Source of the DNA: Hexactinellida sp. DTS-2022
Lineage: Eukaryota; Porifera; Hexactinellida
DNA: 64,000 nucleotides
Direction of reading: 5' to 3'
NCBI GenBank assembly: GCA_028753945.1
Contig: JAPNXP010000002.1
Coordinates: forward strand, 7,068,001-7,132,000
Below, one piece after another: positions 21,654-60,953 of the stretch. Both the position numbers and the translations under genes were made by a program. The notes below the pieces were generated by a model. The model was not told where the DNA came from, made no database searches, and saw only the letters and a list, made by a program, of their open reading frames with translations. The stretch's first letter is position 1. The number at the start of each line of letters is the position of its first letter.

Positions 21654-22345
21654 CAAGTATCCCCTGGAAATCTAAAGTATACTTGGGCACGTTAGTCTGT
21701 CTCATAATTCCCCTTCCAATTATCTATTGTTTAAGACAAAGTTTGACTCTCTAGCTTATATACTTCCCGAGATACAGCAAGGTATGTGGATATGGAACTA
21801 AAAGACAAATGATTGACCACAACATTAATTGAAATTTTTCTATAAACAGAGTCAGATCTGAAATTTGGGTAGTTATCAATGCGATGTTAGTGCCTATATA
21901 GTTAGTACTAACTACTAGCACGGGGGCGACAGAGAGCTTTAAGCAATTACGTGATTGATTAAAAATATTTCTCGAGTGACTAATCATAATTTTCAGAATG
22001 ATGAAACATTCCAGAAAATTATGATTAGTCACTCGAGAAATATTTTTAATCAATCACGTAATTGCTTAAAGCTCTCTGTCGCCCCCGTGCTAGTAGTTAG
22101 TACTAACTATATAGGCACTAACATCGCATTGATAACTACCCAAATTTCAGATCTGACTCTGTTTATAGAAAAATTTCAATTAATGTTGTGGTCAATCATT
22201 TGTCTTTTAGTTCCATATCCACATACCTTGCTGTATCTCGGGAAGTATATAAGCTAGAGAGTCAAACTTTGTCTTAAACAATAGATAATTGGAAGGGGTA
22301 TTATGAGACAGACCAAGTATACTTTAGATTTCCAGGGGATACTTG
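21654..22345. mobile_element. Near-perfect palindromic foldback element
   Basis: Arms of ~340 bp (21654-21992 and 22013-22345) are almost exact complements around a ~20-nt centre. The ends are CAAGTATCCCC / GGGGATACTTG. A ~9-bp indel near 21690 is the main arm difference. Mirrored 100-aa frames are by-products. No clear target duplication was seen. Confidence 0.75.
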
Positions 22346-39383: not shown

Positions 39384-39398
39384 TAGTTGAACCCAGTT

Positions 39399-40094
39399 AC
39401 GAATGTGAAGTTGGCTTAGTATTCGACCAGGGTCACTTCAGTCACATGTTTGACTCACTTTAGTGATCAGATTTGAATAAATTTACTATAATTGGAGAGA
39501 GGAGATACGGAGGTTTACTGTAATATGATTTATTATTAAAAATAATAGTTTTTAGTTAGTTATTTTTATCATACAATTCAGGGTTGGAATTTCATAAAAG
39601 ATCACTGTCTCAAAATTTGTTTACAATTCTGAAAATTTGTAATCATACTTTGGCGAAATGGAGGTTTATGTGATTTAATTTTGATTTAAAATTTCCCAAA
39701 GATTTTGGAGTTATAAACATTCAAACTTTAATTTTGGAAAATGAGTGGAAGTATAATTTTGGAAAGTACATCGAGTAGGGTTAGTTCAAAGTGTCAATTC
39801 CTATCCAATATCAAACTGAATCTATTTTATTTTGGTATCACTCGTTGGAGGAGACACGGAGGTTTACCTCAATGCCATTAGATTCTCGAATATTCACTTT
39901 ATAACAGACAAATAAGTATTTTTTAAATGGTATAAATCTCTGTTTTTATCGTTTTCTCTTTTCAAACTTTGAGCTCAATTTTCCGAGATAAAATATAATC
40001 AGAATCGATTCAAACTTTACAAGCACTTTCTCTGATATATTATTATTCAATTCCCCGAAAAAAAACAGGGGTCGCTAGTCATTTCTTTCAGAAT
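39399..40094 (+). repeat. Left terminal inverted repeat, 7.1-kb element
   Basis: Pairs with 45836-46533. Motif GGAGGTTTAC/T recurs at about 39513, 39662 and 39853, two of them after a GGAGA(C/T)ACGGA-like lead. These are likely transposase-binding subrepeats. Similarity stops sharply after 'ctttcagaat'. Confidence 0.9.
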
Positions 40095-40483
40095 TTCTTT
40101 TTCGTTGAAAACATTAATAAATTTAATTTTCATACTACAAGTTGTATGCTGCGAGCTCATAATAACTATACAACCTCATATACTTAAACAGTAATTTCTC
40201 ATAAGTCGAATTTGCGTCACACAATCGTTAGTTCCACTTACACATTTTAAAAGGAATTTAGTTGTTGCGCCTATAGGCTATTCTTAGAATATATCAGTTT
40301 TTCCTAAGAATGGAAATAGATTTCCAACTTTACACTATTATGTTTTCATTATTTTTTAAATCTTTATCAATCTTTTCACTTTTCACTTTTCTTCTTCTAC
40401 TTCTATTTCTTCATCCCCTATTTCTTGAATTTTAGTTCTCTTCTACAATTCTTTCTTGATTAATTTCTTATTGTTCTCCGTCA

Positions 40484-40651
40484 ATGATTTCTATTGAATT
40501 GTGGCGTGCTCGCATCGGTTTACATTGTAGCCGCAAATGCAATAACCATAATCAATCAACAACAGACCAAATTGATTCATCTGTTTCACTGATCTCGGCT
40601 CTTATTGCTTGTATAATAGCAATTCTACTCGTCATTGGCGGCTCGTCATGA
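40484..40651 (+). CDS. Small ORF, 55 aa, one predicted membrane helix
   Basis: Starts MISIELWRARIG, contains three Cys in the N-terminal half and ends with a hydrophobic stretch LISALIACIIAILLVIGG that looks like a membrane span. Its stop overlaps the ATG of the next frame (TCATGA). I do not recognise it. It could be a leader exon of the transposase gene rather than a separate protein. Confidence 0.35.
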   Translation: MISIELWRARIGLHCSRKCNNHNQSTTDQIDSSVSLISALIACIIAILLVIGGSS

Positions 40652-43600
40652 ACCCTGGGGCTATCACCCCAACTAAAGATACTCGTCACAAACAAGGTAA
40701 TTTGATTGATATACGTTATGAATAAGGATAGCCTTTATTGTTACTTTTTAGAACTACTACCAGCAGAGATAAACTCTATTATCGACGCACTCCTCTCCAC
40801 AACACTAACATTTGATCAATTGATCCAGTTCCTGTCTGTCAGCTACAGTTCGCCTAGTTCCATTTGGGGTTCGATCTGTAAGAAGGTTTACTCGTGTAAC
40901 AAGCCTGTCAAGAGACACAACTTGTATTTGAAATGGAGAAACAACTCTCATAACATAAGAACCCTGGTGAGGGATGCTTTGAGCGAAGTTAAACCATTAG
41001 TAAGTCTCCCTAGTTCGGAGGAACAATTTCACGTGAGTTGTAACCTTACGAACTTAACTATTCAGAGGAGAGCATCATTGGTAACTTCCACTATTCTTAA
41101 GGAAGTAAGTTTAAGTGTAGCTGCGTGTTCTGATTTATTTTCGCCACTCGATAACTTAGATTTAAGAAAACTTGAATTTGATTTAGTTGACGATAAACTT
41201 CTTATTGTGTGGGCATCTTCTGCGTCCGACCAAGCTATGTATGACCGGTTGAAAAGAGATTCTCAGACTGCAAATATTAGTTCACTAAATAGTGATGGTC
41301 ACGATGTGTATTACATGTTCAATACAACTGAATGTCAGCTATGGGTAGACGGTGCTATGTTTTATGGATTAACTTGTCCACAAAATCTTTCTGGTTTTTT
41401 GCAATTCGAGGAAACTTGCTATTTTGATGAGTGTTTTGATTTTATTCCCACGATAGTAAGTACTTATTGTAAAGTTTTGTGGAATGTACTCCTTTATTGG
41501 TTTTGTGGTTGTCTGAAGTACAGCTTGAATGTAGTTTCTTGTATCAAATGTTTGATAAGAAATATGTGTTTTTAAGTGGAGATGACTTGAGTCTTTTTAT
41601 TACTTGGGTAAATGTGTTAAGAGATGTGTACAATGCTGATGGTGTTAAGTGCTTAGAAAGTAAATGTACTGATTTTTGTGTTAGAGTTGTAAGTGAACTT
41701 CCACTTCCTCGTTCTCACGATGTGCCTAATATTAAATCTGACAACTTTGAAACAGAAATGGTGATAGAGAGTTCCGAGATTGAAGTTCTAACTAATTTGA
41801 GTGGTAACTGTGGGGAGTTTTATCTCGAACTGAGTGAGTGGGATAATATTTGTATTACAAATTCTACTGGTATAACTTCATTGGTTAGTAATTGGACTAA
41901 TGTTTTTGCTGAAAAATTTAAAGATTTAGCCCCAATGTGTGTTTTAAAGTTTGTAAATTATTGGTTGAAGAAACCTGATAGTCGTAAGGTTAATAGTCCT
42001 TTCTTCAGAGCTAGAGCGTCTTGTAAGTTTGAAAATTGTCGATCTTATATCTTTTATATTGATGATGCACTAAATTTGGTAGATAATGACATACTTGTCA
42101 AAATTTACTCAGAAGGATATTTGTCACTTCAACATACAGATGGGCAGAGTGCATTTAGTCGCCATCTATCTTGCAGTGAGCGTAGTAAAATGGGAGAATT
42201 ATTAGTTAATAATTCGGTTAGTAAATTTATAATAAACAGTTTAATAATTCAAGTAATCCTTGTCTCTGTTATGGTAATTTTACTTCTCTTAAATCACAAG
42301 ATTGTTTGCGGAAAGTTAAAGCTGAATTGAAATCTAAGGAGCGATTTTCTAATTTATATATGGAAGATATAACATCAACCCAGCAGTATTTCCGTAATTT
42401 ACTCCCTGAATCCCTCCTACCAGGCTATGTTCAGTATTTCGTACAGGATCCTTTCATTATTCATATGTATTCTTATAAGCAGCTGGAAATTCTAAAACTG
42501 ATGAAAAGTAAAGATATTGTCTTGAATTTAGATGCGACTGGTTCTCTTATTTCTAAACCCCCTTCCTGTTCTAAGAAAATTTATTACTATGCCCTTACAA
42601 TACAACACCCGGAGTTTTCCACTAGCATCCCATTAGCTGAGATGATAAGTAGCGATCATAGCACCGCTGAAATCTCACACTTCCTAAATAAATGGTGTTT
42701 GAGTGTAAAATTATTTAACACAATGGAGTTAAAAATTAAAAAAGTTGAGATAGATTTAGTTGGGCTATGATACACAGTACATGTTTAGCGTTTGACAAAT
42801 TTACTATTTTTCATTATCTCCAATATTGTTGGGAATTTATAGCTAATAATGAGAATTTAGGTGATAATATTATAACAGTCCTCCATCTCTGCTCGGCTCA
42901 TATCATGCACAGAATTAGTTATAATTTAAATAGGAAATTCAAATTAGAAAAGGCTTTAAAAAGAATAATATTGCATGTATTTGGTCGTTGGTTAATTGTA
43001 GACAAATGAATGAAATTAATCAACTTTTCGGGTTACTTTGTTATATTTTGTGTAGTAAGAAGCAAACTATGTTTATTGCACTAAATTAAACCAACTAGAA
43101 GAATGTATTAAGGCGGAGATTAATGTTAGTAATGATGCCCCCAATGAATTCGAGGATGAGACTGAAGTTTAGAGTAATGCTGTAACTTACAGAGATAAAT
43201 CCCCCTTTGGCAGACATTTTGAAATGATTTATCGTAATACCTTAGTCTCAATAAGCGAATTCGACAATAATTCGCAACTTGATCCTAGTGTATCTTATAA
43301 CCCCCAAATAGTTGAATTTCTTCTCACGTATTATATGCCATTGTTACCGTTGTGGAGTGGGATAATTTTATGTAAGGTTAATTCGTCAGAGAATGCAACA
43401 GACAGTAATGCGATTGTTGAGAATTGGTTCAGAATTGTTAAACACAGCATATTTAATTCAGAGACCGGGATACGAGCTGCTGATTTCATCAGAACAGTTT
43501 ATAATAATATTGTCTATAGGATCGCGGAGTTTAAATTTGCTTTCACTCCACTGGCTCTTAAAGTGTCTAAAGTTAAGAAGAGATTACGCGTGGAGAATGA

Positions 43601-44490
43601 GGAGGAGTGCAAAGAGGAGTAGTCTAGAAGTAAGAAGAGTAAATTTAGTTATACTATACCAACTGTTGATAAAGTTAGTACGATATTTAAAAATTTCAAG
43701 TCAAAAAGTTTAAGTAGTAAAAATAAAAGTTTTAGTGTAGAAAGTATAAGTAAACGTTCAACAGACAGAAAGGAAGCTACTATTTGTGAAGAAAATCCAG
43801 TAGATGTTGCTACAGTTATTAATGATATGGTGCGTGCAAGTGTAGTTGAAATAATTGGTGATTTAGATTTAGTAGAAATGGCTACCATGGAATATAAGTT
43901 ACCGGCATTCCAACCACTTACATATCGGGGACAGAAGAAGTTGTGTGAAGATTTACATTTACAGTTGTTGGATTCTACAATTCCATAAGAGATAATATCC
44001 CAGGCAATTCTAATTTAAAAGAATATGTTCCTTCGAAGTGTTTGCGAATTCCTGGAGATTGAAATTGTTTATTCGCATCATTGTCGTACTGGTTGACAAG
44101 AAATATTGATGGTTTTAATTTAGTACGGTTGAAAGTTGTAGAGAATATGGTTGGTAAGCTGAAGGATGCATGCAATAAGTTTATTGCCAATAAATTTCCC
44201 AGGAGTGTAATTAACTATCGTAACGTGGCGGACTATGTAGTGAAAACTAATATGAAGAGGAATTCTACGTGGGGTACTGATGTGGAGTTATTTGCATACT
44301 ACAGACGGATATTTGGGTATTTAGTTCAGACATGGGTAACAAGTGGATGGTATTCTCAGGTAGAGGGGCTAAACTAATTGATACTTTGGAGTCTCCTCCA
44401 GGAAATAATGCAGGCTCTATCTATATTAATCATAATGGAGTACATTATGAACCAATATTACGGGTGGATTTAATATCTACGGGCAATTAA
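40648..44490 (+). pseudogene. DDE transposase fused to OTU protease, degraded
   Basis: Reads as one former gene. Exon 1 (ATG 40648-40696) joins a 55-bp GT..AG intron (40697-40751) and continues in frame to 41450. A likely second intron or break lies after 41455. 41540-42240: domain with ASCKFENCRSY and SRHLSCSER. 42280-42770: catalytic start with LNLDATGSLI and YYYALTIQHPE..IPLAEMISSDHS. 42750-43009: FSWAMIH and CSAHIMH. 43170-43622: YYMPLLPLWSG and DSNAIVENWF. 44030-44490: OTU domain, where GD*NCLF has a TGA in place of the Gly codon, then WGTDVELFAYY and, after a shift, IYINHNGVHYEPI. Frameshifts near 42240, 42750 and 44315, and stops at 43172, 43620 and 44060, make it inactive. The order of motifs matches a MULE-like/NOF-type DDE transposase as I remember it. 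Confidence 0.75.
40697..40751 (+). other. Predicted 55-bp intron
   Basis: Donor CAAG|GTAATT and acceptor TACTTTTTAG|AA. Splicing joins HKQ to ELLPAEIN in frame. Short introns of this size occur in compact invertebrate genes. Confidence 0.5.
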
Positions 44491-44756
44491 TGAATTCTCT
44501 GATACCTCGTAGTCGTAGATATTAATTAATTAAAACTATATACGTAATTAGAAAACCAAAGGATTCCCTTTATTAGTTAATGATTAATTGTCTTATGCGG
44601 AATGTTATCCAGGTTTAGAAGTGATCCTATTAATTACATCAATAGAAACAAAGAAGAATAAAATTATTTCGGGGTCTTATAGCGCAATAATTGCGATTCT
44701 CATGTCTACAGCCACCTTCTCTACTTAAATAGTAAAGATTTTCAACAACTTTTATG

Positions 44757-45075
44757 TTGGACAGTGTGACATAGCGCTGTGTGATCCGCGAGAGCTTATG
44801 GTCAGTCACTCCCAGGAGGACTAGGTGCTGCTGGAGCTGTGTAGACAGCGAGAGAGAGCAGGCCTAGGTGTGTCGCGACGATGGAAGAAGACCATCTGGA
44901 CGAGGTCTGACACTGCGGTCTTAGTGAGCGTACCGAGGGTAGAGGACTGGACCGTCCTCCTGATGAGGCCTATGGAGGGCCGAAACCCTAGAGTGGTGGC
45001 GACACCACTTGGACCACTTGAGCTGTCAATGGTGGCAGCTTGATACAGAAAGGTCCCAAAGCTTCTCATGACAAC
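44757..45075 (+). mobile_element. GC-rich insert carrying a hammerhead
   Basis: A ~300-bp GC-rich island in AT-rich DNA, placed between the OTU end and the right TIR. Base composition differs sharply from both sides. It contains the hammerhead and a second hairpin (AGTGGTG-GCGA-CACCACT, 44991-45008). Loosely similar flanks (caacaactttta / caacagttataa) might be a decayed target duplication. The 72- and 82-aa frames here have no domain. It is a candidate retrozyme, SINE or Penelope-derived unit (inference). Confidence 0.5.
44936..44989 (+). ncRNA. Type III hammerhead ribozyme
   Basis: Self-cleaving RNA motif with all core elements in order. Stem III 5' strand AGGGT (44936-44940), cleavage-site A at 44941 (GUA), stem I GAGGAC/GTCCTC (44942-44947 and 44954-44959) with loop TGGACC, core CTGATGA (44960-44966), stem II GGCC/GGCC (44967-44970 and 44978-44981) with loop TATGGAG, core GAAA (44982-44985), stem III 3' strand CCCT (44986-44989). 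Every paired position is Watson-Crick. CC in loop I and GG in loop II could make the usual loop-loop contact. Cleavage is expected 3' of 44941. Stem III is short (5 bp counting the A-U pair), typical of hammerheads that act in tandem or dimeric transcripts. Confidence 0.85.
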
Positions 45076-45217
45076 AGTTATAAAGTGGTAAGTTATATTC
45101 TTAAATGTACATGTGGATGATTTATAAATATTTGTGTAAAGATTATCCTATAGTTCTTTATAAGAAGGCAAATACAAAAAGGAATTGATCTATCCCAAAG
45201 CAGTCGGAATTGATATA

Positions 45218-45409
45218 CAGTAGTCCACCAAAGCGGACACTCCGAGGAGCGGACAACACATTTAAAACGGACAAATCTCCTGGAACGGAATGAATTTACC
45301 ATGCATGTAATTAATACTTCAGCCGTCTCCGAGAAGTGGACATCTCCAGAGTTCAAAGAACAAACAAAGGCCATGTCCCCAACGTGTCCGTTATTCGGAG
45401 ACTCCACGG
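45218..45409. mobile_element. pogo-like MITE in the 7.1-kb element
   Basis: CAGTAGTCCACC..GCGGACAC at the left pairs imperfectly with GTGTCCG..GGAGACTCCACGG at the right; TA on both sides; 192 bp. Confidence 0.6.
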
Positions 45410-45835
45410 TAAACACACATTATTTTAATGAGATACCTGGATGCCATTCTCTCTTCTTGGAATTGGATAAGTAAGATCAATCCAAAAAGCAGTGGGAATT
45501 GATACAAGCACACATTGTGGATGCCATTCTTCTTGCATTGGTTAATACTAATTATATAGTTATCACTACCATTATTACAACCAGAATAATTCATTGTTTA
45601 CTGATTCTGTTTGCATTCCAATCATCTGATGTCTTAATTATATAGTTGAAATTACAATTTGCTATTATTAGTTGAAACTCAATACTACAATGGGAACTAA
45701 GAGAAGCTGAATGAATTGTGTTACATTAAGCAGATAGTATAAATGATATCACTAATATTGATGTTATGATGAAATAAAGATAGGCTTAGCTAAAATAATG
45801 AGATCGAAATTGAAATATTTTGGAGAAATTAAAAG

Positions 45836-46533
45836 ATTCTGAAAGAAATGACTAGCGACCCATGTTTTTTTTTCGGGGAATTGAATAATAATATATCAGA
45901 GAAAGTACTTGTAAAGTTTGAATCGATTCTGATTATATTTTATCTCGGAAAATTGAGCTCAAAGTTTGAAAAGAGAATACGATAAAAACAGAGATTTATT
46001 CCATTTAAAAAATACTTATTTGTCTGTTATAAAGTGAATATTCGAGAATCTAATGGCATTGAGGTAAACCTCCATGTCTCCTCTAACGAGTGATACCAAA
46101 ATAAAATAGATTCAGTTTGATATTAGATAGGAATTGACACTTTGAACTAACCCTACTCGATGTACTTTCCAAAATTATACTTCCACTCATTTTCCAAAAT
46201 TAAAGTTTGAATGTTTATAACTCCAAAATATTTGGGAAATTTTAAATCAAAATTAAATCACATAAACCTCCATTTCTCCAAAGTATGATTACAAATTTTC
46301 AGAATTGTAAACAAATTTTTAGATAATGATTTTTTATGAAATACCAACCCTGAATTGTATGATAAAAATAACTAACTGAAAACAATTTTTTTAAATAATA
46401 AATCATATTACAGTAAACCTCCGTAACTCCTCTCTCCAATTATAGTAAATCTATTCAAATATGATCACTAAAAGTGAGTCAAACATGTGACTGAAGTGAC
46501 CCTGGTCGAATACTAAGCCAACTTCACACTCGT
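45836..46533 (-). repeat. Right terminal inverted repeat, 7.1-kb element
   Basis: Reverse complement of 39399-40094, with scattered substitutions and short indels. GGAGGTTTAC motifs appear as TAAACCTCC at about 46070, 46265 and 46416. Confidence 0.9.
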
Positions 46534-48201
46534 AACCCAGTTACTGTGTTCAGAAATATCTAAACCAATCATATCCTCACTCAATAGGTTGACAAATAAT
46601 ACATAACATCCCGGCGCATTTCAATTCACGGTGCTTTTTCAGAGTATTACCGTACTTCATTCTATATAATTATTATTATATTTTCTTAAATATTAGCTTT
46701 ACTAATAATGTCGAGCGAGTCAAGCTTCGATGGACAGATTTTCAATGAGCCTGATGATTTTATTCCCCAAATCTATTTCAACAGATCGGGACAGCTTTCC
46801 TTCAGAAACCGAGCTCCCCGTTGCTACCATCGCTTCACAAGCACTTCCTACACCTGCGCCAACATAATCCAAAACATCTATACCTCCATCAATACCGGGG
46901 ATTTCGGAGTCCTTTTTTCACTTGACATAGCATCTCAGGCCACAGACAGCTTTCGAAACCGGAGACGTGGGGATCGCCCTCGCAAGCGAATCGACGCCAG
47001 AAGACACATTGTTGGCAATCCTGATACCAAAGAATTCCATCATTCAAGATTGCAGACCCAATTTCCCAGATAAGCAAACCGAAGAAACACAAATTCTTCA
47101 AATCCCACCTGATTCGAGGATATGCCTCTAAATTCCGAGTTCCGCCATATACCCATTCTCGACCAGTCGAATTTAAAACATCTCTGGATAGTTCTTTAAG
47201 GACCGCTTCTAAACCAACTGGAATGAGGATCCTTGATGTAGGCATTTTAGCTGAGGTATTCTCTACCTTTCAATGCAACAAATGCAATGGTCCTCTCGTC
47301 TTGCACGAAGAAAGATGCAGCACGGCTGGCAGACATTCTTTAGAGTCAAGTGCCAGACGTGCCATTCAGAACACGCAACTTTCCCTTCCTCACGTTCTCT
47401 GGACATGCCCAACCACCATAATGAGCTTACAATGAGGTCTGCACTGGTCACACATTCAACTGGTTTGTCATGGCGCGATTTACATAAAATTGCTACAATA
47501 ATTGATATGCCAGCACCAGTTCAATCAATACCATCTCGATATGCCATTCGTCTTGAAGGTGTTACAAAAAAAGCGGTTAATCTTTCGATGTCTGAAGCTG
47601 TTATCAACTACACCAGTAGGTAGATTTAGAACCATCTCCCGAGCCTAATGCTATCAACGTAACAATTAGTTTCGACAGCTCCTGGAAGACCAGGGGTTTC
47701 TACTCCAATTTAGGTTTCGGTGCTGCCATATCTACCTCCACCGAGAAAGTATTGGACTACGAGATCTTGAGTCGACTATGCGAGAATTGCTCTATTTGGA
47801 CAGAAGAGAAACAGAAAGACAAACCATCCGAGTTCGAGAAATGGATAGAGCGTCATACTCCGAACTGCAACAGAAACTACACAGGTTCTTCTCCAGCAAT
47901 GGAACCTGAAGCTGCCGAGAGGATCTGGGGGGGGGGGGCTTGGAGAAGAACCGCCTGGTGTATTCCGTGTTTGTTGGTGACGGAGACTCTAAGGCAGGGG
48001 TGGACAAACTTTTTGCTTCGCGGGCCGTATTCTAATTCCAAATTTTTATGCGGGCCGTATTCACCTACGAGGCTACGACTACGTTCCATGTGGTAATTTA
48101 TTAGAGAAACTTACTAGCTAATTGTAAATAAAAAATAATCATAAATAATAATTTTTCCAATAGTGTTTAATGAGAGCAATGCAGTTGATTCTGCATTTTT
48201 A

Positions 48202-49969
48202 TTAGTTTGTCAAAATTTGGATCTTTTGGTGATATAGCAATTCGTATAAGCTGATCAAGGTGTCATCTGTCATTACAGATCTTGATTTATCCTTGATGAA
48301 TTTCATCCTGGAGAAAGCCTGCTCACATACATATGTTGAACCAAAGAGAACAAGGATACTACGAGCCAGAGATTTTAAACGTGGAAATGTGGCATCATTC
48401 AGGGATGCATAAAAACCTGAGAGTGACATCTCCCGAAAATTATCCTTGAGTAAGTTGTCAATTTGCAAATCCATTTGCAGATGAGTGGGTATTACCTCCA
48501 CTTCAACTGAAAAAGGCCTGGAAACAATGGACATATCTACATTTACAAGATCGAAATCTCAGAATCTTTTCTGAAAATTCCCTGTGCAGATCTTGAAGCT
48601 TTGACGCGTAGTATCCCAGCTTGTCACCACAAACTGATGTCTGCTTGAGTGTAGGCATATGGTCGCAGTTGCCTTTGTTCATTCCTGCATAAATGAGCTG
48701 CAATTTGGCTTTGAAGGCCGCCACCTTTGCATGCATATTGTGAGCCAACATATCCTGACCTTGCAGGTGGGTATTTAGCTCGTTCATGTACTCCATTATG
48801 TCAACTGCAAATGCGAAGTCAGACAACCACTCGCTATCATTTAGCTCAGGGAAGTCTGAAGCCTTATCTTTCATGGTCAGGAAGAGGTTTATTTCTTCCC
48901 TCAACTCCCAAACTCTTTTGAATACTTTTCCCAGACTCAACCATCTTACTTTCGTAGGATAGGGGACATCAGCATATGGTGCTTCCATGTCTCGCAGAAA
49001 AGCTTTAAACTGCCTATGAGTTAGCCCTCGAGCTTTGATGTAATTGACAACCTTTGTCACTACATCAGAAACATTCGTCAAATCAAGAGCACCCTTGCAT
49101 AAGGCATGCTGGTGGATAATACAATGCAAGAATATTATATTTTGGACCGGATTCTCAATGTGGAGTTGATCCTGAAGCTTTTTCAGTAATCCAATATGTT
49201 TCCTTTTAGGTTGGGGCTACCATCAGTTGTGACGCTCACTAGCTTATCCGACGAAATTCCCAGTTTCCCGATGCACTCATTAACTCCCTTTAACAAATCT
49301 GTACCAGTAGTTGTACTTTTCAATGGCTCCATTGACGCGAGCTCTTCCGATATTTTCAAGTTAAAGTCAATTGTACGAATATATATTAGCAACTGGGCCG
49401 TGTCCTTTATATCAGTGCTCTCATCAAGGGCCAAAGAGAAGCAGATACAGTCTCTACATTCATCCTTAACTTGATCATGTAAATCTGCTGAGATTTCTTC
49501 TACTCTGCGGGTAATTGTTCTTCTGGAAAGACTGACACAGTCAAATGTGTTCGTCTCTTTAGGACAGAGAATCAGAGCATGCCAGCAGACAGTCCTTCAC
49601 GAACTCTCCTTCACTGAAGGATTTACTCTCCTGAGCAATTTTATAAGCTACTACAAAACTAGCTCTGGTTCCTGCCTCATTGAAAGGTGTCTGAGGTGTG
49701 AACACTTGTTGTTCCTTAAGCAAAGAATGTGTTTGTTTCTCAGCTAATGCTTTCTTCTCTAACTCTGACATATTTCTGTGAGCTCTCGCATGTTGTGTGT
49801 CATAGTGACGTCTGACATTGTACTCTTTGTATACTGCCAGACTCTCATTACAAAGCAAATAAACACATCGGCCATTCACTTCTGTAAAGAAATATTTTCC
49901 TCGCCACTCTTCATTGAAAACACGACATTCCTTATCTACCTTTCTTTTCTTTGAAATTTTCGAAGCCAT
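48202..49969 (-). pseudogene. hAT transposase (BED finger, ZBED5/GTF2IRD2-like)
   Basis: ATG at 49969. The N-terminus has a BED-type finger (GKYFFTEVNGRCVYLLC... with HYDTQHA), then SFVVAYKIAQESKSFSEGEFVKDCLL. First catalytic Asp in MALDESTDIKD (49434), second in VSVTTDGSPNLKG (~49215). Then CIIHQHALC and TKVRWLSLGKVFKRV. The C-terminal hATC region (48534-48202) has YVCEQAFSRMKFIKDKSRS. Frames break near 49560, 49195 and 48555. One of those pieces spells a plausible 208-aa block. Intact termini with a damaged gene suggest a fairly recent but already dead copy. Confidence 0.85.
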
Positions 49970-50248
49970 ACCAAGATAAAGTACTATTAATAAAAACTAA
50001 AAACGAATTCATTAATAGGTCAGGAAAGAATCTCGGAATCTCGCCCACAGAATTACCGTAATTTGAAATTTTGTCCGAGAAAATTTCGTCCCAAACAGAA
50101 TAAAAACTGAATGTCAATTACATATACACTAGCTTAATGTAATTTATAAAGAACATAAAAAATTGACTCAAGAGAAAATCAAGTTCTCTTACAAATTCGA
50201 GAAAGACGTTCACTTTGGGTCAATTTATACCTATCCTAGATCACTTAA

Positions 50249-53998: not shown

Positions 53999-55080
53999 AT
54001 TTCGAAAAATCTTTCTAGATTAATATTTATTATATAAAGCGAATTATATTCTAAAGTATCTTAATTTCGTCACACTCTGTGACATTAGCCCCTACACCAG
54101 CATTTATATTATATTGAGAAAGACTCCATAAAGAACCCCCACAAGTTTAAATTTACAAAGTGTTATTCGATAACTATACCACTGCAAAGTGGATTAAAAT
54201 GCCTATGAGTATGGAATAGGCATTTCTGTATTATTTATCCCTATAAATATATTATTTGCTAATAGATTATTGATAACTATAAATTGATTTTTGCGTTCAG
54301 ATTTCGCATCTGACTTCAATCTGTCAAATTATGACACCATCATTATGTGACAAAAAATATTATATCAAGTCTAATCACTTTATCTTGGCATGATAAGTTA
54401 ACGGTATCGCCGAAAATACGAAAATGGTGATTTTCAGTGGAAATAATATCTCGATGGATTTATTTTTTTCTTGCTAATTTATTCTTAGGAATGTCTTGTT
54501 TCATGCTAGGTGGTAAAAAACATTTTTGGTCAATAGGAATGCACTTATGCGTCATAATATTGCTCCATATTTGTTCAATTTTCGAAATAACTCGATATAT
54601 TTGAAACTTTGGTATCACAATGCCCTGACATAGATCTTTGTTTTTATGATGAAAAAACTATCAATATTTATAAATGACTGATTTTATCATCTCCACATTG
54701 GAATTTTGACTCTATATCATTTCCATGGTTACCATTGCCATATATTGTAATGTTTGACAATATTCAAAAGTGTAATGTGTAATGTGAATGTAGTATTGTT
54801 GTAATTAGCATATATTGAAACCTGATATACTATAGTGTAACTATCCAACTGAAATCTGATACTTCATTTATTGTTTCAGATGTCACAATATCTTATTATA
54901 GAAATCATATTCGTTTCAAATAACTTTATGTAATAATAGTATGTGAAATATGCAACCATTCATTGCATGGTGTTATGTGGATGCCTATGGTTATGTGGCT
55001 GACCATAATAATGTGGCAGAAATAGATATGTGGTTGACCAAAGTCATGTAGTTGATTTAGTTATTGCTATAAATAGTAGA
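53999..55080. other. No gene recognised
   Basis: AT-rich. Some phrases at 54960-55030 ('atgtggctgacca') repeat loosely. Confidence 0.4.
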
Positions 55081-55088
55081 TCAAATAT

Positions 55089-56335
55089 AAATGGGGCAGG
55101 GAATGGGCCTGGAATGGGCAGGGGAATGGGCTGCGTGGTGCCGAGAATGGGCCTGGTAGAGCCGGGTAAAGCCGGGAATGGGGCAGGTAGAGCCTGAAAT
55201 GGGTCGCGTGGAGCCGGGAAGGGTTCAGCTAGAGCCGAAAATGGGTCGGGTAGAGCGGAATGGGGCAGGTAAAGCCGGGATTGGGCCGCGTGGAGCCGTG
55301 AATGACCCGGGTAGAGTGTGATTGGGGCAGGTAGATCCGGGAATGGGGCAGGTAGAGCCGGGATTGGGCAGGATAGAGCCGGGAATGGGCCGGAATGAGC
55401 CGGGAATGGGCCGCGTGGAGCCGGGAATGGTTCGGCTAGAGCCGAAAATGGGCCTGGTAGAGCGGAATGGGGCAGGTAGAGCCGGGAATGGGCCGGATAG
55501 AATGGGAATGGGGCAGGTAGATCATGGAAATGGGCCGCGTGGAGCCGGGAATGGGGCAGGTAGAGCCGGGAATGGGCCGGATAGAGCCGGGAATGGGCCG
55601 GAAAGAGCCGGGAATGGGCCAGGAATGGGCAGCGTGGAGCCGGGAATGGTTCGGCTATAGCCGAAAATGGGCCGGGTAGAGCGGAATTGGACAGGTAGAG
55701 CCGGAATTGGGCCGGGTAGAGTGGGAATGGGTCAGGTAGATCTGAGAATGGGCCGCGTGGAGCCGGGAATGGGGCAGGTAGAGCCGGGAATGGGCAGGAT
55801 AGAGCCAGGAATGGGCCGGAAAGAGCCGGGAATGGGCCAGGAATGGGCCGCGTGGAGCCGGGAATGGTTCGGCTAGAGCCGAAAATGGGCAGGTAGAGCA
55901 GGAAATGGGCCGTGGGAGCCGGGAATGGGCCGGGTAGAGCCTGGAATGTGCGCGTGTAGCCGGGAATGTGCCGGGTAGAGCCGGGAATGAAGCGGAACAG
56001 CCGGTAATGGGCCTCGTGGAGCAGGAAATGGGCCTCGTGAAGCCGGGAATGGTCCTCGTCGAGCCGGGAATGGGCTTCGTGGAGCCCGGAATGGGCCGGC
56101 TAGATCCTGGAATGTGCCTCGTTGAGCCTGGAATGGGCCGGGTTGAGCCTGGAATGGGCCGGATTGAGCCAGGAATGGGCCGCGTGGAGCCGGGAATGTG
56201 CCGGGTAGAGCCGGGAATGGGGCAGGTAGGGCCGGGAATGGGCCGAGAAGAGCCGGGAATGGGGCTAGAGCATGGATGAGCCGAGTAGAGCAGTGAATTG
56301 GCCGGGTAAAACAGGAATGGGCCACGTAGACCCGC
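55089..56335. repeat. GC-rich minisatellite, unit ~21-22 bp
   Basis: Over 50 degenerate copies of a GGGAATGGGCCGGGTAGAGCC-like unit, with variant blocks (GGGCAGGTAGAGCC, GCGTGGAGCC). No stops occur for long distances, so all strands give repetitive frames (up to 229 aa, minus). Repeating PGMGRVE- or IPGSTRP-type peptides follow from the unit. Composition is far from its surroundings. I do not call a protein: there is no unique start or domain, and frames shift between blocks. Confidence 0.9.
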
Positions 56336-56399
56336 TGGATCCAACTCCTACGGAGACATCCCAGGTCCAATATTAATCGTGATTATTCATAAGAGGTTG

Positions 56400-57380
56400 G
56401 ATAATAGCACTAGTAAGTATTTATCCCTTGATCAATGACTTATGCGGATAAAAATCCCAATGTATTTCCTGTGCTGAGATGTATAAATTTTGAATGCGTT
56501 TCTCTCAGAATATTGTATTTGCCCTGAATACATATCCCCACATACTAGAAGTACTATACATTATATATGTAATCAAGTTAGTACCTATACCTACTACCTA
56601 GAATAAAAAAGTACCGTAGTAATACTCGAATAGCTCAATATATTGGCCAACATCTTAAATATCCTATGATTATGAAACTTAAATCCCAATAAGTGAAGCA
56701 ATTGGAAGATTTAGCGTGGAATATGGGATATTTAAATGCAATTATAATTAAAATGCTCAACATGTACATACTTCCAAGCACGGACAGAGTAAGACTAGAG
56801 TAAATAAATGATGAAATACATGTCGACTTACTATTTGCAGTTGGCTGTACTCCACCGCAATTGGTCGTCATATATATTTAAGTCTAAAGAAAGAATACGA
56901 TGAGCAATATTAAATTGAGTGTACTCCTAATCGGTATAATAATTGATTTCAATGATATTTATTTAAACTTAGTTATTGCTTAGTTTTACTGTAAAAACTT
57001 AGCAAAAGTTAAGTCCAGTCCGAAGCAGACTTAACTTAATTATTCGCTCCTTTTTGATATGATGGCATCAATAAATATAATTTTAGAGCTTTGTAGCAAT
57101 TCGTACTATCTCCCAACATAGTACACACTTAAAATAAGAATATAATGAAGTGACTTCCTCATAAATATTTTAAAATCATGGTTGGACTAGGATTATTAAT
57201 AATACATGCATAATTGCGTGGATATTGGGATAGTATTGTTTTGCAATCAATCGCAATACTTCGTCAGGATGACAAGATTTGAATCCTGAAATGGAAAATC
57301 TATAACTAATTAATTTTCGATGCTAAAGAGTAAATAATTTTATCCCAACTTACAATAATTGTTGCATTCTGTCACTTCCG
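56400..57380. other. No gene; possible 5' flank of Harbinger element
   Basis: AT-rich. A hairpin AGTTAAGTC/GACTTAACT at 57008-57040 is the only notable structure. I could not identify Harbinger TIRs. Confidence 0.4.
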
Positions 57381-59597
57381 ATGTCTTTGACAATTCGTGC
57401 CAAGAATTTTTCAGCCGAGGAGATAGCATTACTAATTGACTTAGTTCAAGAGAATAAGCCAAATCTATTCGGTGCTTTAAGTTCTTCTCTCACCAGTGAA
57501 GAGAAAGTTAACATCTGGGAAGATATCGCCCAAAAGCTTACACAGCTCATGGAACAGTTAGAACCAAAGATGATGTATCTAATAAGTGGTCTAACATCTT
57601 GGCAAAACACAAGCCGATTATTAGCGACAAGTTGTCCTCCATCCGTAAAACAGGAGGTGGGTCCCCTGAAGGAAATTTATCTGAAATGGAGCTTAACGCT
57701 ACCTACGACCTCCCATGACTGTGACGTAATGGGTAAAATCAATACCTTTTACCATGTCAATTCAATTAGTATATCAGTTCCTTTACCTTACTGTATAATA
57801 TATGAAAAATAACTAACATCATTGATTTAATTCTTAAACTTGCCTATATTCAATGAAAACATATATAGGGTTGCTATGTAATATAAGCCATATATATATC
57901 TAGTAGAAAAACATGATTACATGAAACACTTTGTTTTTACTTCATAACTCGTCAAATAAATATGCATTCAACTTGCGTATACGAGAAAATCACCAATGTT
58001 ATGTAAATTTAATTTATTTATTATGAATTCAAAAATTTAGCTCAATCTTTCGATGGAATTTCCCATATTAATGAGAAATGTGGCCATACAACTTTGCGAA
58101 ATTAGAAAAAAGTATGGAAACGCTCTGAAAGTTATTTAGATATTTATATAAACTACATCTCCCCGAAATTTCAAGTTGATACTATAAATAATCACGGAGT
58201 TCTCTAGCTTTTTCCACAGCCGGTATTAGAAAATATTTATGTGGAGAAGAGGGTTTAGAAGGACACAATAGTGGCACAAACCTTCAATACTTCTTACAGA
58301 TAATGGTTTGAAGATAATTGAAACAGTTCATATTCCTCGAAAACGATTACTGATAGTGTTAGCAAGTTAGAGCTAAGCTCTTGCACAACTCTGATTTTCA
58401 TGATCGATGGTTTGTGATGGTCACATGACACCTCCATATATGGGCATGGGCTTCTTAAAATGGTGACTATTTGGAAAATACTCCAATTTGTTATTCCAAT
58501 GATATATGCATGATATATTGATGTGAATAATCGATTAGAGCTAAGCTCTGCTTTCTCTAGTTTATGAGATACAAAATTGCTGAATCATCAAAATGTGGCA
58601 CATATCCATGCCCATATATGGTCATTTGAAAAAACGGGGCTTCTGAGGGTCACAAAATGTATTTTAGACGCATAGGAAGTCGTGTATTGCGAGCCTTTTT
58701 CATTAGTACATTTTAATTATAGGTGCACGGGAGTCTGAAAAATGTATTAAGAGGGGGTGTGTCAGAAATTGGACCCCAAAGATAGATAATGTGCCCTAAC
58801 TTTGCGAATTTTCTCTTTCTATATGATTTTTTTATCAATTTTGGTGTTTTTACCTAAGACTATCTAATGGGCCAGGTATATTCAAGGAAAATCACAAAAA
58901 ATCACTTCAGTTACAGCAAACAATCCTTCTGAAAGTGCTGAACCACTGAAAAAGTACACTCAGCACCCCAAATATCGTACCTATAGAGGTCAAATTAGTC
59001 GAGATATTGTACGTTTGACCTTTGCATATCTTTGGGGGCTTAATTCAAGCGTCTATAGATGAAATATAATTTTTTTGTAATTTTGTAGCCATTGGCAAAA
59101 TAGTACTCGTAGATAGCGTTAATAACAAAAGTATTAGGGGTAAGGAACTTTTCGAAGGTGTTGCATCAGGGATTGATCTTTCCCTTTTATCGCCAATCAG
59201 TCCATTGAGTGAATCTGAGATGTCCATCGGCAGTGCAACAGATAGAGACATCAAACCACGTCGAAAAAGAAAATTCTTCGACGATGATGTTGCTTTAGCT
59301 CACTCGGTAAATAATGTTATTTTGCAAAGTGAACAGGAGAAGCTGGTTGTATTGAAAAGTATAGATAGCAAGTTGGATCGAGTGGTGGATCTCTTAGAAG
59401 CTGTAGTATATAATCAAAATAGGATTCTCTCCAACAATTTTAGCCAAATACAGCCTACTTCACAGCCTACTTTACTACCTTTTCAAACTGCTCCTTCTAC
59501 ACTACCACCTCCCCTAATCCTCACGGGTATTTTCACTCCTTCGTTCCTCCGCAGCCTCCGTACCCTCATCATTTTCAAACTAATGATTAATTTATAA
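57381..59597 (+). pseudogene. Harbinger Myb/SANT-like protein, split
   Basis: The DNA-binding partner protein of PIF/Harbinger transposons. 57381-~57550: NFSAEEIALLIDLVQENKP and KVNIWEDIAQKLT, the first helices of a Myb/SANT-like fold. A one-base shift near 57545 leads to RTKDDVSNKWSNILAKHK, the third helix, then RKTGGGSPEG to ~57710. The gene is then interrupted by ~1.4 kb of AT-rich repeat DNA. From ~59085 it resumes (GKELFEGVASGIDLSLLSP), with a basic patch KPRRKRK and a C-terminal helix EKLVVLKSIDSKLDRVVDLLE to 59597. The gap could be an intron enlarged by a repeat, or an insertion. It converges with the nuclease gene. Confidence 0.7.
57813..59080. repeat. AT-rich repeat DNA splitting the Myb gene
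   Basis: No coding. Holds CCATATATGG at 58434 and 58612 and phrases ('gagctaagctct') shared with 27500-27800. Boundaries could not be set. Confidence 0.45.
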
Positions 59598-59668: not shown

Positions 59669-60733
59669 TTAATCAAAATAATCTGTAATGACTGACTGGC
59701 GAACAATACTTCCATTAGTTGTTGATGTATCACCCGGATAACTATCTTCTACAATAGTATCTTATACAATAGGATCTTCTTGCTAGTTTGTATCTATCTG
59801 CCATTGTAGCCTATGATCGATGCAAAAATTATGCAGCACCATTGTAGCTACTACTAATAGACAAAATCTCTCCGGAGTGTAACAGAGAGTCCCTCCAGTT
59901 TTGTCCATAGAACGCCATCTACTCTTCCAAACCCCAAAGCGCATTCAATAGTTGTTCGAGATTTCAGAAAAGCTCTACTAAAGCGCCTCTCCCCTGGCGT
60001 GTTTGGAGAAATTATTGGTGTAAGGAGGTTTCGTCTTTAGTGGATACTCACTATCGCCGAGAAACCATCCTTTGACAGTGGGTATATCTCCACTAGCAAC
60101 CCTTCGATTGATACCAGACTTCCTCCAAATAAAGGCATCATGAGTGCACCCAGGCCATTTGGCGACAATATCAATAAATTTTAAATCGGTATCGCATATT
60201 GCTTGGACATTGATGGAAATAAAGTTTTTCCAGTTGGCAAATAGATCTTCGTTACAGGGAGGTGCTAAAATAGGTACATGTGTGCCGTCAATACATCCGA
60301 GTACAAGTGGAAAGCCATTTAATTCCAAGAATTTTTGCTGTATTCGTAATTGAACTATTTGATTTGGGAAAACTATATAATCTCGGGCAAAAAAACATAG
60401 TGCATCTGTCACTGTACGGATACATCGGGAAACAGAAGGCTGGGATATCCCATGTGAAGTTGCGACAACCGTTTGAAATGAACCGGTGGCGAGAAATTGT
60501 AATGTGACAGCTAATTGTGTGGGAGCTGGAATGGAATGTGATCGAATAGTTGATCGATGAAGGAACGTTACAACTTTTTCTTGCAGCTGAACGAATATAT
60601 ATTTAGTAAATCTGTAACGCGCGATAAATTCTGTATCATTATAAACATCAATTGGGTTGAGTCTATCACGAAATACTCTCTGTCGTGACAAACTTTGTGA
60701 AAGATCGAGATCAAGTAGAAAACCGAGTGCCAT
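59669..60733 (-). pseudogene. PIF/Harbinger nuclease (HARBI1-like)
   Basis: The transposase nuclease that works with the Myb-like protein. ATG at 60733. 251 uninterrupted codons cover the N-terminal helix-turn-helix-like region (TQLAVTLQFLATGSFQ, ISQPSVSRCI), the first catalytic Asp in VLGCIDGTHVPI (~149) and the second in WPGCTHDAFIWRKS (~199). A frameshift near 59985 and another near 59940 follow. The third acidic residue is in TTIECAFGVWKSRW, then MVLHNFC. A stop or two lie in the tail before the end at ~59669. Length and motif spacing fit the family (~350 aa). Lightly damaged. Confidence 0.85.
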
Positions 60734-60788
60734 AAAAGAAACAATTGATGGTTGTTTATTGTATGTTGATAGATGTAGTTTATATATA

Positions 60789-60953
60789 CAGTGGAAGCCG
60801 CTTAATCGGGACGCCTCGGGAGTAGGAATTTAGTCCCGTTTATCCGGTTCTCCCGATTAACCGATATACTATTGATACGAATTGGTTTCCAAAGCCTCGT
60901 CCCGAATAACCGAATTTCCCGATTACCATCTCCCGATTAAGCGACTTCCACTG
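60789..60953. mobile_element. pogo-like MITE, 165 bp
   Basis: CAGTGGAAGCCGCTTAATCG at the left and CGATTAAGCGACTTCCACTG-like complement at the right; TA on both sides. It sits ~55 bp upstream of the Harbinger nuclease start. Confidence 0.8.

Follow-up and report, generated by a model that had tools for sequence, protein, structure and literature searches.

A type III hammerhead ribozyme in a nested solo LTR: a probable LTR retrozyme in a hexactinellid sponge

The window analysed here (64,000 nucleotides, positions 7,068,001 to 7,132,000 of contig JAPNXP010000002.1 in assembly GCA_028753945.1 of Hexactinellida sp. DTS-2022) contained a type III hammerhead ribozyme (HHR) with a complete core and three stems, of which stem III is the open one (Table 1). 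The first-pass annotation had proposed this ribozyme from the letters, and it was present base for base in a direct reading, in agreement with the Rfam type III model, the predicted fold and a strict descriptor. A match to model RF00008 (Hammerhead_3) at positions 44934–44991 of the plus strand scored 36.2 bits, its E-value being 3.1e-6 when 501 bases were scanned and 3.9e-4 for the full window. The covariance search suggested as a check thus gave a type III match, but one that falls short of Rfam's curated gathering score (48.5) and is visible only in a scan by E-value; a default Rfam scan of the window gave nothing. The strict descriptor matched a single site in the window and had no match in 100 sequences simulated from the window with a first-order Markov model, and minimum free energy folding returned the three stems with an energy that was not unusual (z = −1.5). 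Drawn with 4 bp, stem III is short but indeed free of mismatches, as had been described for the stems; several relatives carry one of 6 bp. No HHR was found on the opposite strand in the Rfam scan of the whole window.

As had been described, the HHR lay inside a Mutator-like DNA transposon, a 7.1-kb element with terminal inverted repeats (TIRs) of about 670 bp, a 9-bp target site duplication (AACCCAGTT) and a weak OTU-like match. Mutator-like elements have long TIRs and a target duplication of 9–11 bp. Because Pfam gave only the weak OTU-like fragment and no transposase match in the open reading frames at 40706–44374, the label ‘Mutator-like’ rests on the anatomy, that is, on the TIRs and the 9-bp duplication. 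Introns may interrupt the transposase domain of the element, or its sequence may have diverged. Just to the right of this transposon, a second Mutator transposase fragment was detected at 47620–48093 (PF20700, E = 4.3e-16), followed on the minus strand by the remains of a hAT-like element at 48205–49996 (hAT dimerisation domain PF05699 and Spin-doc zinc finger PF18658). Myb_DNA-bind_5 and DDE_Tnp_4 domains were present at 57327–57809 (+) and 59981–60829 (−), respectively, as in PIF/Harbinger transposons. Long overlapping frames at 55047–56382 were built from a short tandem repeat, and a match to Rfam MIR2606 at 21932–22076 (E = 2e-10, well under its gathering score) was perhaps a transposon inverted repeat.

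Table 1. Features of the host transposon, the nested LTR and the hammerhead ribozyme (window coordinates)
Feature	Position	Strand	Basis
Left 9-bp target site duplication, AACCCAGTT	39390–39398	.	same 9 bases at 46534–46542
Mutator-like host transposon, 7.1 kb	39399–46533		TIRs and 9-bp duplication
Left TIR, ~670 bp, 97–98% complementary to right	39399–40065	+	arms 39459–40065/45866–46472 and 39396–39461/46471–46536
OTU-like fragment, weak	44063–44374	+	PF02338, E = 0.02, 15.8 bits (cut-off 23.3)
Left 4-bp target site duplication, ACAG	44761–44764	.	sequence; duplication test
Solo LTR, 309 bp, TGTGAC...TGACA, non-autonomous LTR retrozyme (probable), family A	44765–45073	+	ends from copies outside the transposon and from the duplication
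Type III HHR	44936–44989	+	direct sequence read
AGGG	44936–44939	+	direct sequence read
GUA cleavage triplet, predicted cut after 44941	44939–44941	+	sequence and Rfam alignment; cut predicted from HHR consensus
Stem-loop I	44942–44959	+	direct sequence read
CUGAUGA	44960–44966	+	direct sequence read
Stem-loop II	44967–44981	+	direct sequence read
GAAA	44982–44985	+	direct sequence read
CCCU	44986–44989	+	direct sequence read
Right 4-bp target site duplication, ACAG	45074–45077	.	sequence; duplication test
Right TIR	45866–46533	−	inverted-repeat arms
Right 9-bp target site duplication, AACCCAGTT	46534–46542	.	matches left 9 bases

A search of the genome for further copies, also proposed at the outset, yielded 41 matches to the hammerhead region (a count by DNA similarity and hence a lower bound). 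In 15 of these, the match runs on into transposon sequence at either end; in the other 26 it does not. One copy outside the transposon (L016) matched exactly the interval listed in Table 1 as a solo LTR. The same ACAG flanks were shared by all 15 transposon-borne copies, indicating a single LTR insertion that was amplified along with the transposon; the LTR was therefore inserted into an ancestor of the Mutator-like element and then copied with it. With the OTU-like fragment on one side and the right TIR on the other, the HHR sits on the coding strand, and the 15 copies that belong to this transposon lineage (each recovered by the HHR query) retain the insert, as might be expected if the ribozyme were a working part of the transposon that, for example, cuts the 3′ end of its mRNA. 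We consider such a role very unlikely, since 26 of the 41 copies lie elsewhere and the TG...CA ends with the ACAG duplication mark an insertion; moreover, stem III is damaged in some transposon-borne copies (five of the L005 type, and L008). The earlier attribution of the HHR to the transposon itself thus gave way to its assignment to a separate, nested LTR. Its location in a DNA transposon stood, and the actual surprise is the kind of retroelement found in an animal host.

Across the genome, 68 places were scored with the Rfam type III model, 64 of them over the gathering score, and the exact 18-base HHR core pattern with a variable loop occurred at 301 places (reversed control, 0). Among the matches listed, copies were found on at least 17 of the 18 contigs, with none listed on contig C7, and the HHRs thus do not stem from one contaminant contig. 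The core-pattern places listed (100 of the 301) comprised 91 on contig C1 and then 9 on C2; C1 thus holds 91 of the 301 places but only 17.6 of the 112.4 Mb, a possible enrichment on one chromosome. Domain searches detected nuclear-receptor zinc fingers at 2 places and TGF-beta ligands at 4, both to our knowledge metazoan-specific families, and these matches mark the host as an animal. No Wnt match was found in the genome, but as the control genome also gave none, this negative does not show absence.

The HHR-bearing LTRs formed three families, A, including the window copy, B, defined by 30 of the Rfam-scored places fetched as loci, and C, with the ends TGTAGT...TACTACA. LTRs of the families measured 231–325 bp and the units about 345–486 nt. 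Paired LTRs elsewhere in the genome enclosed 73–161 bp of non-coding DNA, and the interiors (73 bp in L021, 111 bp in L067 and 161 bp in L079) are too short for protein-coding capacity. The best pair was in L079, where two direct LTRs lie 486 apart and both HHRs score 57 bits, while the direct LTRs of L021 lie 375 apart (HHRs of 35.0 and 39.8 bits) and the two direct, HHR-bearing LTRs of L020 lie 397 apart. Weaker pairs were found in L067, whose first LTR is cut off within stem I of the HHR, and in L082, whose first LTR differs in its 3′ part. L020, L021 and L022 each contained two copies of the insert around a short linker, the second copy of L022 breaking off and folding back.

The linkers of L021, L020 and L022 open with TGGTGCATTGGCCGGGAA, or a near form of it, and close with a purine run before the second TG. 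The 18-mer TGGTGCATTGGCCGGGAA complements the 3′ end, CCA included, of tRNA-Gly(GCC) as encoded by a gene of this same genome. It occurred exactly at 7 places in the whole 112-Mb assembly (reversed control, 0), and all 7 were directly behind the 3′ end of an LTR, one in family A and six in family C. Five of these LTRs carried a complete HHR core, and the HHRs of the other two (C6:4551193 and C12:4313311, both on the minus strand) were broken by fold-back or deletion. With up to 2 mismatches, 13 places were found, 10 of which lay behind a retrozyme LTR (the hammerhead of one, L077, is also damaged); at L075, L076 and L078, no resembling LTR was found beside the site. With up to 3 mismatches, 42 places matched, compared with 8 for the reversed pattern. 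A purine-rich tract preceded the second LTR in all eight loci read (L020, L021, L022, L067, L069, L077, L079 and L082), with 10–12 purines among the last 12 bases. In family B, no recognisable tRNA 3′-end primer site was found behind the LTR, and the interior instead opens with a strong hairpin (L079, 449–492; also L018 and L054). A search with the family B interior recovered it complete only in the L079 array, and elsewhere as partial matches of 44–72 bases.

Target site duplications were examined on 107 LTR pieces, from which 24 insertions outside multi-LTR loci had both ends called, pieces with an end not found being left out and the 15 transposon copies being counted as one event. An exact 4-bp duplication with TG...CA ends was present in 13 of these 24 single insertions, 5 of which are not full-length LTRs, and in 12 of the 19 full-length ones. 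Cross-paired flanks of different insertions were identical over 4 bp in only 5 of 552 cases. Among multi-LTR insertions, 7 of the 10 examined had an exact 4-bp duplication (L021 and L079, CTAT; L022, CAGG; L054, CGTA; L080, ATAT; L081, CTCC; L082, CTAC); L020 matched at 3 of 4 bases, and L040 and L073 had none. Loci truncated in their outer LTR, among them L067, L069–L072, L077 and the palindrome in L018, did not enter this count. The exact duplication was thus absent from 11 of the 24 single and 3 of the 10 multi-LTR insertions.

Several multi-LTR insertions were inverted. In L079 (C1:7627600–7629950), a single CTAT duplication encloses five LTRs that are almost identical, two of them in forward and three in reverse orientation; the array folds back at a 15-bp inverted repeat on the border between LTR and interior. 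Near-identical arrays of this sort suggest recent activity. Tail-to-tail palindromes were also found in L054, L080 and L022, each in a single 4-bp duplication, and in L018, L040 and L073 with no called duplication, that of L040 joining two different subfamilies. L081 (C1:4510850–4511550) comprised two direct HHR-bearing LTRs with no interior between them, inside a CTCC duplication. Among the 100 of 301 core-pattern places listed, 10 pairs of neighbouring HHRs were less than 700 bp apart, 6 direct and 4 inverted, and in all 4 inverted pairs the 3′ sides face each other. Palindromes of this kind would result if, as we infer, the growing cDNA folds back close to the primer site during reverse transcription. 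Target duplications around a palindrome are not what one would expect of a fold-back artefact of the assembly. Inverted multimers are, for their part, unlike the outcome expected of ordinary LTR retrotransposition, which counts against the LTR retrozyme reading.

On this anatomy, the window sequence is most probably (with a probability of roughly 0.87) the solo LTR of a non-autonomous LTR retrotransposon with a type III HHR in each LTR, that is, of an LTR retrozyme in an animal. A more conventional account would see in these loci ordinary terminal-repeat retrotransposons in miniature (TRIMs) that acquired an HHR no longer of importance. Animal TRIMs with 4-bp duplications are known (PMC10886601), cleavage in the sponge elements is a prediction, and some full elements have a damaged HHR, all of which would suit this account. 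It is nevertheless improbable in view of what is conserved. Reference LTRs of families A, B and C aligned over at most 32–56 bp, all at the HHR, whereas alignments within families covered most of the length (A1–A2, 79%; B1–B2, 72%); the window LTR had no match to family B or C at an E-value of 0.01 or better, and the related L021 matched B. The HHR is therefore the sole sequence aligned among the families, it shows compensatory stem changes, and its exact 18-base core is kept at 301 places. Stem positions III3, III4, I5 and II2 paired in 98–100% of 53 HHRs, compared with 49–76% when partners were shuffled, and changes on both sides occurred in stems I, II and III (e.g., from G-C to U-A). The 53 were distinct HHRs with an intact CUGAUGA and stem I, of which 47 passed a filter on stems II and III and 6 that failed or were misparsed were added back; these pair statistics are flattered, given that an intact core and stem I were required for entry and that kinship within families inflates them. 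Pair III5 had no support over shuffles (53% versus 47%), and the other positions hardly varied. Cross-family alignment confined to the HHR and two-sided stem changes argue that the ribozyme is under selection in these probable LTR retrozymes.

Plant LTR retrozymes carry type III HHRs in LTRs of roughly 350 bp and have 4-bp duplications, a tRNA-Met primer site and a purine tract (PMC4918200, PMC7761336). The sponge elements share with those of Cervera, Urbina and de la Pena (2016; PMC4918200) the type III HHR in the LTRs, the primer site and purine tract, an interior that codes for no protein, duplications of 4 bp and a high GC content, as well as the occurrence of solo LTRs and of multimers. 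They differ in having an animal host, a tRNA-Gly(GCC) primer site in families A and C instead of tRNA-Met, and LTRs of 231–325 bp and units of about 345–486 nt against about 600–800 in plants (PMC4918200). Further differences are the tail-to-tail palindromic insertions and, in family B, the hairpin that stands at the start of the interior where a tRNA site would be expected. In its anatomy the sponge element is an LTR retrozyme, and it would work like one; what sets it apart from those of plants is its host, its primer tRNA, the size of its units and the palindromes among its products.

Animal retrozymes have been classed as non-LTR elements with type I HHRs (PMC7229834), a picture repeated in a 2024 review (PMC11722881), and the same group reported no primer site or purine tract in animals (PMC4918200), with the exception of a full tRNA sequence in schistosome repeats. 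Could the sponge sequences be such non-LTR retrozymes, or an HHR satellite repeat, mobilised by Penelope-like elements? They resemble those of Cervera and de la Pena (2020; PMC7229834) as short non-coding HHR repeats of similar RNA size, the units of about 345–486 nt being near the reported 170–400 nt, and some copies are multimeric. The animal retrozymes carry type I HHRs and are reported to be without LTR, primer site, purine tract or 4-bp duplications (PMC7229834), whereas the HHR here is of type III and paired LTRs with the tRNA-Gly site contradict the idea, which we regard as extremely unlikely. A genome search for type I HHRs found nothing, but as its control genome was likewise empty, this does not show absence. 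Miniature LTR elements with 4-bp duplications do exist in animals, such as the TRIM Helenus, whose LTRs bear a tRNA-like sequence and not a ribozyme (PMC10886601).

Type III HHRs in animals have been described in delta-like RNAs, termites and flies (PMC7936874), which raises the idea that a retrotransposon captured a viroid-like or delta-like RNA and that the sponge loci are its DNA copies. The presence of such HHRs in toad and termite delta-like RNAs and in insect genomes (PMC7936874) would fit, as would the highly self-paired unit RNA (the 486-nt unit of L079 is far more self-paired than its shuffles, z = −6.7). Nevertheless, the loci have LTR ends, a purine tract and a primer site of the LTR retrotransposon type, and the opposite strand of the window is without an HHR, leaving this origin with hardly any likelihood. 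The dipteran, termite and delta-like HHRs are alike in being type III in animals and unlike in their atypical long helices I and II, with no LTR context given in the excerpts of PMC7936874.

For the LTR retrozyme, the following cycle may be proposed. The element would be transcribed, and the HHRs in both LTRs would cut the transcript at the observed spacing, releasing an RNA of about 345–486 nt made up of one LTR plus the interior, which may then be ligated into a circle. In families A and C, tRNA-Gly(GCC) would anneal behind the LTR, where the complementary site lies, and the reverse transcriptase of an autonomous LTR retrotransposon would copy the RNA. The cDNA products would be solo-LTR, LTR-internal-LTR and multimeric or folded-back forms, and all three types are present as insertions. 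Solo LTRs can also arise by recombination. An integrase of the LTR-retrotransposon type would insert the cDNA with the 4-bp duplication seen at the insertions. The window solo LTR would have landed in this way in the Mutator-like transposon, to be carried to at least 14 other places.

With regard to the enzymes, 150 Gypsy/BEL-type integrase zinc domains scored over the cut-off in the genome, many in long open frames, and elements of this type could supply them. An LTR retrozyme would be expected to share its LTR ends and primer boxes with a Ty3-gypsy element. The genome primer-site search found no autonomous partner that carries this 18-nt site among the 13 places with up to 2 mismatches and, of the 29 with 3 mismatches, at the one that was read, the tRNA-Gly gene. 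For family B, the hairpin makes self-priming possible. A tentative extension, which we hold to be a minority possibility, is that an animal lineage of LTR retrozymes uses reverse transcription templated by ribozyme-made RNA circles, with family B primed by its own hairpin at the border between LTR and interior and fold-back cDNA giving the palindromes with single duplications. If true, this would be a hairpin-primed, fold-back route of retrotransposition absent from the retrozyme literature consulted.

Retrozymes have been thought to be split by kingdom, into LTR elements with type III HHRs in plants and non-LTR elements with type I HHRs in animals (PMC7761336, PMC7229834 and PMC11722881), and no report of an LTR retrozyme in an animal was found in the open-licence PMC literature. 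A well-formed animal LTR retrozyme breaks this division. That the primer tRNA is a different one suggests either that ribozyme module and LTR machinery came together on more than one occasion or that they have long been apart. The origin of plant retrozymes and of hammerhead viroids becomes testable by comparing animal with plant LTR retrozymes. Two pattern scans of viral contigs gave no match, and a similarity search of phage records aligned the window HHR with 48 bp of Caulobacter phage S2B (MN857473, 44988–45035) at 87.5% identity, at a place where no feature is annotated; the rest of the LTR was unmatched.
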